This document shows, one piece after another, positions 145-54,445 of a stretch of DNA of 64,000 nucleotides (position 1 is its first letter; every line of letters starts with the position of its first letter). The notes beneath the pieces were generated by a model. That model worked only from the letters and a program-made list of their open reading frames with translations, made no database searches and had not been told where the DNA came from. This stretch comes from Natronomonas salinimetallica (GTDB lineage Archaea; Halobacteriota; Halobacteria; Halobacteriales; Haloarculaceae). Both the position numbers and the translations under genes were made by a program. The stretch spans positions 155,947 through 219,946 of the forward strand of contig NZ_JACDNQ010000003.1 of NCBI RefSeq assembly GCF_013839515.1, given 5' to 3'.

Positions 145-1257
145 TCAAACGGCGTCCAGTTGGTGAAACCCCTCCCCAGTGATCTCGAATCGTGTGCCGC
201 CGCCTTCGCCCTCTGTCACCGCGACGTCCCAGCCGTGGGCTTTCGCAATCTGGGAGACGATAGCCAGTCCGAACCCCGTCCCCTCCGTCGTCGTGGTGAA
301 ACCCCACTCGAGTACGTCCTCCCGTTCGTCTTCGGGAATGCCGGGACCGTCGTCCGCGACATAAAACCCCTTGACCGTACTCCCCGTCGCCCGCGTCGTC
401 ACCGGTACCAACTCGATCGAGCCGACCGTAACGGTGGCGTCCGAGCCGGCGTGCTCGATGCTGTTCTCGAAGAGGTTCTCGAAGAGCTGTCGCAGCCGCT
501 CCGGGTCCGCCTCCAACTCACAGTTGCGGTTGACCACCAACTCCAGCCCCGACGTCTCGACGTTCTTCCAGGCGTCGCGGGCGACCGAGTCGAGGTCAGC
601 CCGTCTCGTCTCGGTGACGCTCTGTCCGGTGCGGGCGAGCGTCAACAGCTTCTCGAGGAGCACCGATATGCGATCGAGCGCGTGCGAAGCGTCCTCGATG
701 TGGGGGCTGTCACACGCGTCGTCCATCAGCTCCAGCCGACCCTTGGCCACGGTGAGCGGGGTTCGGATGTCGTGACTGACGAGACTGGCGAACCGTTTGA
801 GCTGTTCGTTCTGTCGTTCGAGCTCCCGCTCGCGCTCGTTCGCCCGGCGCTCGGCGACGTACCGACTGGCGGCGTTGTCGATGCGATTCGCCAACACCGC
901 GTACTGGGCGGTACCGCCTTCCTCCGTGAAGTAGTCCGTGACCCCGGCTGAGATCGCCTCGCTCGCGACCCCCTCGCTTTCGCTGTCGGCGTACAAAAAG
1001 AACGGGAGATCGACGTACTCCTCACGGACGGCTTCGAGGAACGCGACCCCGTCCATCCCCGCCACGTCGTAGCCACTGACGATACAGTCGATGTCGTCCG
1101 CCAGGCGGTCCATCCCGGCGTCCGCGCTGGTGACCGTCTCGATTGTCAATCGCCCGTGTTCGTCCGCGAGATACGCCATCACCTGTTTCAGAAACCCCGG
1201 ATCGCCATCGACGTAGAGCACTCGAACCGGCTCTCGGTGGCTCGATGTCTCCCTCAT
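145..1257 (-). CDS. Histidine kinase with degenerate N-terminal receiver domain
   Basis: Soluble sensor kinase of 370 aa. Residues about 10-125 have a receiver fold, but the acceptor site reads IVSGYDVAGMDG with Gly where families carry Asp, and the usual C-terminal Lys is Glu (DYFTEEGG), so phospho-transfer to this domain is unlikely. A coiled linker leads to an H-box (SLVSHDIRTPLTVAKG), an N-box (LFENLFENSIEHAG) and ATP-lid motifs DDGPGIP and GTGFGLAIV. No membrane segment is visible, so the signal probably reaches it through the pseudo-receiver or a partner. The ATG at 1257 was preferred over an upstream frame because family members begin just before the receiver. No partner response regulator is adjacent. 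Confidence 0.9.
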   Translation of the reverse strand: MRETSSHREPVRVLYVDGDPGFLKQVMAYLADEHGRLTIETVTSADAGMDRLADDIDCIVSGYDVAGMDGVAFLEAVREEYVDLPFFLYADSESEGVASEAISAGVTDYFTEEGGTAQYAVLANRIDNAASRYVAERRANERERELERQNEQLKRFASLVSHDIRTPLTVAKGRLELMDDACDSPHIEDASHALDRISVLLEKLLTLARTGQSVTETRRADLDSVARDAWKNVETSGLELVVNRNCELEADPERLRQLFENLFENSIEHAGSDATVTVGSIELVPVTTRATGSTVKGFYVADDGPGIPEDEREDVLEWGFTTTTEGTGFGLAIVSQIAKAHGWDVAVTEGEGGGTRFEITGEGFHQLDAV

Positions 1258-1390
1258 TGATCCCTGTATCCACAACGCGAAGATAACGGTTTGGGACGAT
1301 ACCACGAGTGACACCGCCGGCCGTCATACGGGTCCTCTGCCGACGCGTCGGCGAGCGTCGCCCCGGGTTCCGACGACATCAGCCCGTCCC

Positions 1391-51639: not shown

Positions 51640-51725
51640 CTATAGTAACAATTGAAGCGATTTACACACCGATCACACTACTGTCGTGCGATCGGGTGTG
51701 CATTGATTTTCAATGGCTACTATAG
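51640..51725. mobile_element. 86-bp palindromic MITE-like element
   Basis: The stretch starts CTATAGTAACAATTGAAGCG and ends CAATGGCTACTATAG; its two 39-40-bp halves are imperfect inverted repeats around TACTGTC, with tips CTATAGTA / TACTATAG. It would fold into one long hairpin. It is AT-richer than its surroundings, encodes nothing, and supplies the stop codon of the gene at 51710. From memory, near-identical sequences recur in haloarchaeal genomes; this needs a search. A non-autonomous transposon remnant or a terminator-like hairpin are both possible. Confidence 0.75.
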
Positions 51726-52030
51726 CTCTCCGCCGTCTCCGCCGTCTCCGCCGTCTCCGTCGATCGCCCGTCGACCGAGAAGTCCTCGATCGACCGCCCA
51801 CGACGGGCGACCTCCTCGCTGATCAGCAGTTTCTCCTCGCGCTCGAGTTTCGACCACTCCAGCGACGCCGGCGGCGACTCCTCGAACGCCCGGAACTGCT
51901 CGAAGACGGCCTCGTTGACGAACCGCTCGAAGGAGCCACAGGACTGACACGTCACGGAGAGGTGCGAGGTATCGAACCCGCGCGAAACGGTGTGTTCGAG
52001 ACAGCCGAGACAGCGATATATTCTGGACAT
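51710..52030 (-). CDS. Small zinc-ribbon protein, 3' end modified by the palindromic element
   Basis: A 106-aa protein with an N-terminal ribbon (YRCLGCLEHTVSRGFD, VTCQSCGSFERF) and a helical C-terminus (SPPASLEWSKLEREEKLLIS). It belongs to a small haloarchaeal group of unknown function. The last 15 residues are unusual: a three-fold ETA repeat from a 9-bp array (CGCCGTCTC), then SYSSH and a stop contributed by the palindromic element at 51640-51725. The original C-terminus has probably been replaced. Confidence 0.75.
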   Translation of the reverse strand: MSRIYRCLGCLEHTVSRGFDTSHLSVTCQSCGSFERFVNEAVFEQFRAFEESPPASLEWSKLEREEKLLISEEVARRGRSIEDFSVDGRSTETAETAETAESYSSH

Positions 52031-52104: not shown

Positions 52105-53163
52105 TCAGGGACGAACGGCCTTCCGGATCCGTTCGGCGAGCACCTCGTATTGCTCGCGACCGACGTCCTTTTCGACGTAGTCGGTGGCGTCGTCCAAAAT
52201 CGCCTGTTTGGCCACCTCTTCGCTTCCCTGACCGGTATACAGAATAAACGGCAGTTCCGGATACCGCTTTCGAACCCCGTTGAGGAACTCGATACCGTCC
52301 ATGCCCGGCATCCTGTAGTCGCTGACGATACAGTCGATCCCGGCGGCCTTCGACTCGCGTTTGAGGACATCGAGTCCGTCCGCCGCGGTAGCGGCCGTGG
52401 TCATCGAGAACGTCTCGGATTGCTCCCGTAAGAATACCTCCGCCATCTCTCTGTCGTGCGGATCGTCGTCGACCAACAGGAGTTCGACCGTCTCTCTGCG
52501 CCTGGGTGCGGCCCCGATCGCATCCACCGACAGAAGATCGGCCCGCAGGTAGCGTCCGAACAGATTGAGGATCCGAAACGACGGTACGGTTGCGACCGTC
52601 TTGAGAACCCGACCGCCGGTATCGGCGTAGATGATTACTGCCGGTTCGTTGTCGCCGCCATCGGCCGCGGTAGAAGGCGTTTTGAACTTGATCACGTCGT
52701 CGCGGCGAATGACGATCGGGTCCGCCGTGCCGTCGGGCCGAAACCGGATCCGCGATGCACTGACGGCTAATGTTCCGTCGTACGGGCCTCTTTCACCCAT
52801 CCCGGAGTGGTCTCGACACTGCACGGCGAGGGCAGTGCCGTTTAGCAGTTGCGCGTAGAGTACCTGCTGGAACCTGACCATCGTCTCCACGCTGGCACTG
52901 ATCGAGACCGTCGATCGCCGGCCGTCCGCCCGGAACGCGAGCGTAACCGTTTCGGTCGCTCCGGCCTCCCGGAGCCGCGAAACCCCCTGGACAACGTCGA
53001 AGACGTCCGATAACTCGATGACTCGCTTTCGCTCATCGACTTCGATACCCAACTTCCGCTCGCTCACGACGACCCGCGTCCGATCCGATACCTCCTCGGA
53101 TTCGCCGTCCACCTCGACGTCGGCCCGGAAATCCGCTACGATAGTTCCCGACAACGTATGCAC
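52105..53163 (-). CDS. CheF-like domain fused to a receiver domain
   Basis: A 352-aa protein. Residues 1-220 match the archaeal CheF fold (GTIVADFRADVEV, RVVVSERKLGIEVDERKRVIELSD-like strand order, LYAQLLNGTALAVQCR, RILNLFGRYLRADLL). CheF connects CheY to the archaellum motor. Residues about 230-352 are a receiver with all key residues: acidic pair LLLVDDDPHD, acceptor Asp in IVSDYRMPGMDG (about 283), Thr in ILYTGQG and Lys in YVEKDV. The start is a GTG at 53163. It is divergent from a histidine kinase across a 175-bp region with a 28-bp array, suggesting a kinase-to-motor pair. No other che or arl genes are near. Confidence 0.85.
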   Translation of the reverse strand: MHTLSGTIVADFRADVEVDGESEEVSDRTRVVVSERKLGIEVDERKRVIELSDVFDVVQGVSRLREAGATETVTLAFRADGRRSTVSISASVETMVRFQQVLYAQLLNGTALAVQCRDHSGMGERGPYDGTLAVSASRIRFRPDGTADPIVIRRDDVIKFKTPSTAADGGDNEPAVIIYADTGGRVLKTVATVPSFRILNLFGRYLRADLLSVDAIGAAPRRRETVELLLVDDDPHDREMAEVFLREQSETFSMTTAATAADGLDVLKRESKAAGIDCIVSDYRMPGMDGIEFLNGVRKRYPELPFILYTGQGSEEVAKQAILDDATDYVEKDVGREQYEVLAERIRKAVRP

Positions 53164-53192
53164 GCTTCAGGTGCCTCGATTATGATTGTTTC

Positions 53193-53275
53193 TACGGTTT
53201 CACCGGTTGATTCTACCGGATACGGTTTCACCGGTTGATTCTACCGGATACGGTTTCACCGGTTGATTCTACCGA
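53193..53275. repeat. 28-bp tandem repeat, 3 copies, in the CheF/kinase intergenic region
   Basis: Units start at 53193, 53221 and 53249 with TACGGTTTCACCGGTTGATT. The unit contains the inverted arms ACCGGT / ACCGGA around TGATTCT. The array lies 30-112 bp upstream of the CheF fusion and 67-149 bp upstream of the kinase, so it could hold operator sites for both. Confidence 0.95.
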
Positions 53276-53341
53276 GGTGCCACCGACGAACGGGAGGCCG
53301 AACCGAAGCGTACTCCACATGATAGCACGTACCGGTGGGTG

Positions 53342-54445
53342 ATGGGATCGACACGCCGCGTCCTACTCGTCGGGATCGAGCCGGACGACCGCGCCGCGAT
53401 AACGGAACGGCTCTCACAGTTAGAGACGACCGTCTCGGTGCTCTCGGCTGCCGACGCTGAAGCGGCACTCTCGTCGCTCGAAGCCCCGCCGGAGCCGATC
53501 GATTGTCTCGTTAGCGCCCACCGCCTCGCCGGGATGGACGGAATCGCGTTCTCCCGGGAACGAACACGCCGGCTCGCGTCGCCAACCGTCCCGTTCGTGT
53601 TGTTCGTTACCGACGGCTCGGAAGCACTCGCGGCATCGGCACTCGAAGCCGGCGTCTCCGGGTACGTTCGGCGGGAGGGGCCTCATGCGACCGACCGACT
53701 GGTCGAGCGTATCCGACCTGAAATCGAGCCCCAGCGTCCCGAAAAAACCGCTCCCGGAGCCGTCTTCGATAACTGCCGGCGGGAGCTGCGGTGGGAACGA
53801 GAACGCATCGAGGACGTCAGGCACGCGCTCTCTCATGACCTTCGGAGTCCGTTGAACGTCGCAACCGGATACCTCCAGTACGTCTCGGGCGATTTCGATA
53901 CCTCCGGGGGACCCGACGAGGAAGCCGTCGGGAAGGTCTCGAGCGCCCTCGGCCGCATCGACTCGTTCCTCGACGACGTCAATGCACTGATACAGCAGGG
54001 CCATCCGGTCGATTCAGCCGACACCGTCGAGCTCGCGGCCGTAGCTCGTTCCGGATGGACGGATATCGACACCGGTTCGGCCCACCTTCGGGTTCTCGAC
54101 GATACCCGTCCCGCCCTGGGGTCCGCCGTTGCCGACCGCGAGCGACTCCTGGGGCTGTTTCGGGAGCTGTACCGAAACGCGATCGAACACGGCGACTCGG
54201 GCGTGACCGTCGAGGTCGGAGGACTTCCCGACGGGTTCTACGTCGAGGACGACGGTCCCGGCATCGAAAAAAACAAACTGGAAGACGTATTCCGCATCGG
54301 CGTGTCAGACCACAGGGATCGAACCGGGTTCGGACTGGCTCGGGTTCGACACGTCGCCGCCGCCCACTACTGGGACGTCTCTATCGGTGAGTCTCCCCTC
54401 GAAGGCACTCGCATCGAAATCACCGGGACCGAATCCGTCGAGTGA
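53342..54445 (+). CDS. Histidine kinase with receiver-like domain lacking the acceptor Asp
   Basis: A 367-aa soluble kinase. Residues 5-125 have a receiver-like fold in which the acceptor is Ala (LVSAHRLAGMDG) and the late Lys is Arg (GYVRREG). The kinase core has an H-box (ALSHDLRSPLNVATGYLQ), N-box (FRELYRNAIEHGDS), DDGPGIE and TGFGLARV. It could phosphorylate the intact receiver of the divergent CheF fusion. ATG 53342 follows an in-frame GTG at 53339. Confidence 0.9.
   Translation: MGSTRRVLLVGIEPDDRAAITERLSQLETTVSVLSAADAEAALSSLEAPPEPIDCLVSAHRLAGMDGIAFSRERTRRLASPTVPFVLFVTDGSEALAASALEAGVSGYVRREGPHATDRLVERIRPEIEPQRPEKTAPGAVFDNCRRELRWERERIEDVRHALSHDLRSPLNVATGYLQYVSGDFDTSGGPDEEAVGKVSSALGRIDSFLDDVNALIQQGHPVDSADTVELAAVARSGWTDIDTGSAHLRVLDDTRPALGSAVADRERLLGLFRELYRNAIEHGDSGVTVEVGGLPDGFYVEDDGPGIEKNKLEDVFRIGVSDHRDRTGFGLARVRHVAAAHYWDVSIGESPLEGTRIEITGTESVE

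Follow-up and report, generated by a model that had tools for sequence, protein, structure and literature searches.

Switching of the archaellum is thought to depend on the CheA–CheY–CheF path. In CheF, two PH domains are followed by a C-terminal domain (CTD), which dimerises and binds phosphorylated CheY (CheY-P); the CTD by itself also binds CheY-P (PMC9126983). In Hfx. volcanii, CheF without its last 83 amino acids forms polar foci at the archaellum pole, the same as full-length CheF; for this reason, it is the PH domains that are believed to be turned toward ArlCDE (PMC9126983). Two types of CheF are relevant here, CheF1 (OE2402F type; structures 7ovp and 7od9) and CheF2 (OE2404R type), the latter being the characterised lineage nearest to the protein considered below; OE2404R binds FlaCE and FlaD in Halobacterium salinarum, and its loss has a weak phenotype, with smaller swarm rings and no switching defect (PMC2666748). 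Among archaeal two-component systems, the regulators with HalOD1, HalOD2, or HalX, as presented in the main text of a census, combine a receiver with an archaea-specific output domain, HisKA kinases being their presumed partners (PMC5847659).

In the window (the whole stretch of 64,000 nucleotides analysed, from a haloarchaeal genome of 2.78 Mb), a gene joining a CheF part to a receiver is transcribed divergently from a gene for a soluble histidine kinase (Table 1). Judged by its sequence, the fusion belongs to the two-component response regulators, its output domain being derived from CheF. It is thus similar in design to the HalOD1, HalOD2, and HalX regulators and differs from them in that the output domain is CheF; the main text of the census does not mention this architecture (PMC5847659). 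No published description of a natural CheF–receiver protein was found in the open library, the main CheF papers, or the main text of the census, while an engineered CheY:CheF-CTD construct (PMC9126983) is a different object. We lean slightly toward reading the divergent genes as a two-component system complete in itself, with a CheF-type motor adaptor as its output domain; such a system would provide a direct input from the kinase, through the PH domains of CheF, to ArlCDE.

Table 1. Features of the fusion–kinase locus, with positions counted in the window
Feature	Positions	Strand	Details and basis
CheF–receiver fusion gene	52105..53163	-	352 aa, GTG start; Pfam, 18 homologous loci, invariant receiver residues
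Receiver domain, residues 228–337	52153..52482	-	PF00072, 73.8 bits; D232, D233, D282, T310, K332 intact
Fusion-specific alpha4–beta5 surface, residues 319–334	52162..52209	-	holds seven of the ten receiver positions conserved specifically in fusions
Codon of predicted phosphoacceptor Asp282	52318..52320	-	invariant in 19 fusions
Short flexible linker, residues 208–225	52489..52542	-	CheF alignment ends at ~210/293; low pLDDT
CheF PH–PH part, residues 8–207	52543..53142	-	PF04283, 67.8 bits; fold match to 7ovp
Divergent intergenic region, 175 bp	53164..53338	.	28-bp repeat; CCGTAGAAACAATCATA-like element preceding the fusion gene
Soluble histidine kinase, 368 aa	53339..54445	+	Pfam; every full-length ortholog found adjoins a fusion
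Degenerate (pseudo-)receiver of the kinase	53363..53713	+	PF00072, 32.6 bits; alignment of 7 orthologs
HisKA dimerisation/phosphoacceptor helix	53825..53986	+	H-box HDLRSPLN, His166 at 53834–53836
HATPase_c domain	54134..54424	+	N, G1, and G2 boxes ELYRNAIEHG, EDDGPGI, GFGLARV

The Pfam scan assigns residues 8–207 of the fusion to CheF-arch (PF04283, 67.8 bits, E = 1.5e-18, curated cut-off 25) and residues 228–337 to Response_reg (PF00072, 73.8 bits, E = 1.6e-20). In the AlphaFold2 model (mean pLDDT 78), two PH-like beta domains and a (beta-alpha)5 receiver can be seen, with a low-confidence linker at residues 212–223; Foldseek with this model retrieves 7ovp, a crystal structure of CheF (E = 1e-8), as well as many receivers. 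A PDB sequence search with the fusion returns receivers only and does not recover the CheF crystal, and the best 60 matches of a profile search are likewise receivers only. The covalent joining of CheF to a receiver, proposed in an earlier note on this DNA, is borne out by the two Pfam matches, and the N-terminal part, about whose identity with CheF that note had kept a reservation, is CheF both by profile and by fold. Since 18 further loci encode the same architecture, a chance or mis-assembled fusion is ruled out.

The homology of full-length CheF to the fusions ends at CheF residue ~210 of 293. The C-terminal dimerisation/CheY-P-binding domain, looked for in the fusions by alignment to full-length CheF, is absent, and the receiver stands in its place. 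Addition of a receiver onto a complete CheF is therefore rejected; the alignment indicates that the receiver substitutes for the CTD in a domain exchange, with no extension of the protein. Without the CheY-P-binding domain, whose absence this alignment shows, the fusion is not CheF in the full sense, and, to judge from the domain loss, the fusions presumably have no docking of CheY-P. Hence, the receiver is joined to CheF, as was suggested earlier, and does not supplement it, the CheY-P-binding domain being replaced. The remaining CheF paralogs examined, including those that have diverged strongly, can be aligned through their C-terminal ends. The single exception, L229 (3370–4377), combines a diverged CheF PH part with a degenerate, receiver-like C-terminal stretch in which the acceptor Asp is missing, and is possibly a second, independent CheF–receiver fusion. 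CheF proteins of ~630–680 aa were also observed (L225, 3702–5663; L226, 3374–5299; L227, 4118–6007; L228, 3046–5049); they carry an extra N-terminal domain of ~300 aa, which has no Pfam match and is, by eye only, somewhat tyrosine recombinase-like.

The receiver itself has retained its active site: the acidic pair D232/D233, the acceptor D282, T310, and K332, noted earlier as intact in the window, are all present and invariant in 19 of 19 aligned fusions. CheY and CheB are substrates of CheA. The fusion receiver has the receiver fold and the active-site residues in common with CheY and CheB of its own genome, yet is only 27% identical to them, versus 45–50% to the closest receivers of the histidine kinase (HK) type in the same genome; therefore, its relatives are substrates of HisKA kinases, not of CheA, and an origin from CheY is rejected. 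Neither a CheA-type kinase nor a CheY/CheB-type receiver is found at the locus, where the kinase is of the HisKA/HATPase_c and the receiver of the HK type. Ten receiver positions are conserved in the fusions and not so in 48 other haloarchaeal receivers; seven of these (K319, L323, D324, D325, V330, E331, and V334) fall within 16 of the 125 positions, residues 319–334 (p ~1e-5). The alpha4–beta5 region, to which they belong, is the usual carrier of receiver output, and by analogy with receiver biology the cluster may form the output face of the fusion receiver.

In the kinase, Pfam recognises Response_reg (32.6 bits) and HATPase_c (45.5 bits). HisKA scores 21 bits, under the Pfam cut-off of 26.9; as the orthologous neighbours score 29.7–32.6 bits, the domain is real. 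In the receiver of the kinase, the acidic pair is gone (VG[IN] instead), the acceptor position is Ala60, and Lys is changed to Arg112; this degenerate receiver and the intact HDLRSPLN H-box are common to the seven aligned orthologs. The divergent gene thus has the receiver, HisKA, and HATPase_c domains expected of the soluble histidine kinase described in the earlier note, and the lack of an acceptor Asp, also described there, extends to the acidic pair and the Lys. A second receiver–HisKA kinase is encoded at 145–1314 (-) of the window; its receiver is degenerate as well (Gly for the acceptor Asp), and it shares 33% identity with the kinase adjoining the fusion.

From these features we infer the following route for a signal of the pair. 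The kinase would autophosphorylate on His166, the phosphate would move to Asp282 of the fusion, and the two PH domains of the latter would dock on the archaellum switch ring ArlCDE, as is thought for those of CheF. Because the receiver occupies the place of the dimerisation/CheY-P-binding tail, phosphorylation would act from within the fusion in place of CheY-P, via the alpha4–beta5 face, dimerisation, or movement of the PH domains. The motor would in this way receive an input that does not come from CheA and that biases or blocks its switching, beside the CheA–CheY–CheF path of the same cell. The window genome also holds two CheF genes complete with the CTD and a separate CheY. On contig C29, a CheF gene lies beside a HEAT-repeat gene in a CheB–CheA–CheR cluster (che gene names other than CheF were read from the sequences by eye), and on contig C8 a CheF2-like gene lies in the arl cluster; the fusion, on contig C23, is not in the che gene region of this genome. 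Since a conventional che/arl system is present as well, the fusion pathway would be a side input, not the main path. Of the self-contained pathway envisaged earlier, the pairing of the kinase with the fusion is supported, and phosphotransfer, ArlCDE binding, and an effect on reversals are predicted.

An unlikely alternative, although the one that fares best, is that the fusion is a competitor or brake on the CheF sites of ArlCDE, unable to take CheY-P, so that phosphorylation by the neighbouring kinase, or by another, only tunes its presence at the motor and chemotactic switching is damped. It agrees with the loss of the CheY-P-binding tail and the retention of the PH domains, with the co-existence of the fusion with che/arl sets, and with the behaviour of CheF-deltaCTD, which is still found at the motor, with ~0.55 reversals per second versus 0.82 (PMC9126983). 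However, a strictly conserved receiver would be needless for a mere competitor, and the remodelled alpha4–beta5 face, though compatible with competition, is not explained by it.

In the CheF tree, some internal branches of which are weakly supported, the 19 fusions form one clade (100/100) at the end of a long stem branch; it groups with CheF of the arl-cluster type, apart from the clade of HEAT-adjacent CheF. Sequence matches to the crystallised CheF C-terminal domains are given by the HEAT-adjacent type and not by the arl-cluster type; because of these matches, and of the gene order HEAT–CheF(+)/CheF(-), the former corresponds to OE2402F-like CheF1 and the latter to OE2404R-like CheF2. The PH part of the fusion is ~25% identical to the CheF2-like set and ~16% to the CheF1-like set, and has residues F12, R30, D56, F98, F160, R197, and R204 in common with CheF2-like proteins. 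By these comparisons, the CheF half of the fusion is nearer to CheF2 (OE2404R) than to the essential CheF1. With CheF1 it shares two PH-like domains on one chain and, as predicted, a link between phospho-signalling and the archaellum switch, but where the fusion has a covalent receiver, CheF1 carries a C-terminal domain for dimerisation and for the binding of separate CheY-P. CheF2, the nearest lineage in the tree, differs in keeping the C-terminal domain, which the fusion lacks, and interacts with CheY. Given the low identities and the long stem, motor binding by the fusion may be lost or changed.

Were that so, the PH–PH half would work off the archaellum, and the pair would be an ordinary two-component system acting on some other partner (type IV pili, the membrane, or a signalling protein), which we regard as improbable, more so than a competitor. 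The low identity to true CheF and the long stem would suit such a role, as would the varying kinase neighbours and the CheF paralogs with odd architectures in the same family; it is opposed by the residues in common with CheF2-like proteins, by the MCP neighbours in H. ezzemoulense, where, and only there, the fusion lies between a kinase on one side and two MCP genes on the other, and by the genomic distribution. In the samples tested, every fusion came from a genome with archaellum or canonical CheF genes. Arch_fla_DE genes are present in 12 of the 12 fusion genomes of the class sample (p = 0.05, marginal, kinship ignored), and canonical CheF in 9 of 9 in the family sample (p = 0.02, kinship ignored). 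Within the genus, the fusion occurs in 6 of 8 genomes with canonical CheF versus 0 of 12 without it (p = 0.0007, kinship ignored); in Natronomonas genomes without canonical CheF (L208–L210), CheF matches are weak, partial, and below the cut-off, and were set aside.

The reading of the fusion as a kinase-driven adaptor at the motor concerns a family restricted, in these samples, to genomes with archaellum or canonical CheF genes. The 19 fusions come from at least seven haloarchaeal genera, and the named carriers include Natronomonas, Halorubrum (H. kocurii, H. ezzemoulense, and Halorubrum sp. PV6), Haloglomus irregulare, Halorientalis sp., and Haloplanus sp. The family sample (146 genomes) has nine full-length fusions, below which the score drops from 263 to 129 bits; the class sample (391 genomes) has 13 fusion loci in 12 genomes, with a gap from 411 to 186 bits. 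A search of 393 genomes of the phylum gave no fusion beyond the order, and none was seen outside haloarchaea among the genome-contig matches listed, or in viruses in a search for close relatives. Halorubrum sp. PV6 carries, besides the chromosomal copy, a second one on plasmid pHrrPV6, beside a TnpB-family gene (L195/L200), and because of this plasmid copy the fusion gene appears to be mobile. Both plasmid records carrying the gene annotate its product as 'response regulator' only.

Full-length orthologs of the window kinase (50–67% identity) were found in seven genomes, including that of the window, out of about 400 (six from the 391-genome class sample and one more from the genus). In all seven the kinase lies beside the fusion (hypergeometric p ~2e-10 in the 391-genome class sample, kinship ignored); the two genes, therefore, co-occur in other genomes, which the earlier note had wanted to see, and its caveat that their link relies on a single gene order is superseded. 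A HisKA kinase of some kind, in divergent or convergent order, adjoins the fusion in 12 of 18 assessable loci (one locus at a contig edge was left out), compared with ~2% expected by chance from the 36 HATPase_c matches in the window genome. These neighbours include a short soluble kinase (L077), a REC-GAF-PAS kinase with a degenerate receiver (L194), a REC-PAS kinase (L199, H. ezzemoulense), and 7TM-PAS-GAF kinases in convergent orientation (L078 and L080); at six loci (Haloglomus type and most Halorubrum) no kinase adjoins the fusion. Hence, the pairing proposed earlier is conserved for the seven orthologs, and several fusions have a different adjoining kinase or none. A scheme in which CheA, or a range of kinases, phosphorylates the fusion for the integration of signals at the motor, with the neighbouring kinase mainly a phosphatase or one of several inputs, would agree with these six loci and with the presence of CheA in the window genome, but is very unlikely given a receiver of the HK and not the CheY/CheB type, and a dedicated kinase phyletically tied to the fusion.

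Kinase identities correlate with fusion identities over seven pairs (r = 0.91), and the pair in G306, a genome of another family, is close to the Natronomonas pairs, which suggests that kinase and fusion were transferred as a unit. At L193, the pair was probably acquired by horizontal transfer, and the evidence from gene order and co-occurrence is for this reason partly non-independent. More tentatively, and stopping short of favouring it, we consider that the pair may be a CheA- and CheY-independent route to the archaellum, a portable two-gene module that has moved between families and had its sensory kinase swapped several times. If the proposed input is real, PH domains alone would be the motor-facing output, and kinases other than CheA could address the motor directly. 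It would also make the communication between CheF and ArlCDE testable with an adaptor switched by one phosphorylation, without separate CheY, a simpler object for structural and binding work.

A small CxxC zinc-ribbon-like open reading frame lies at 51710–52030 (-) of the window, 74 bp downstream of the fusion and on the same strand; a family search with it gave no convincing family. The divergent promoter region contains a perfect 28-bp tandem repeat (TACGGTTTCACCGGTTGATTCTACCGGA, 2.9 copies, 53193–53274), the core of which does not occur elsewhere in the 2.78-Mb genome. A CCGTAGAAACAATCATA-like element, conserved in the window (~53175–53200) and at the orthologous loci L073, L074, L075, and L193, directly precedes the fusion gene and may be a core promoter or an operator.
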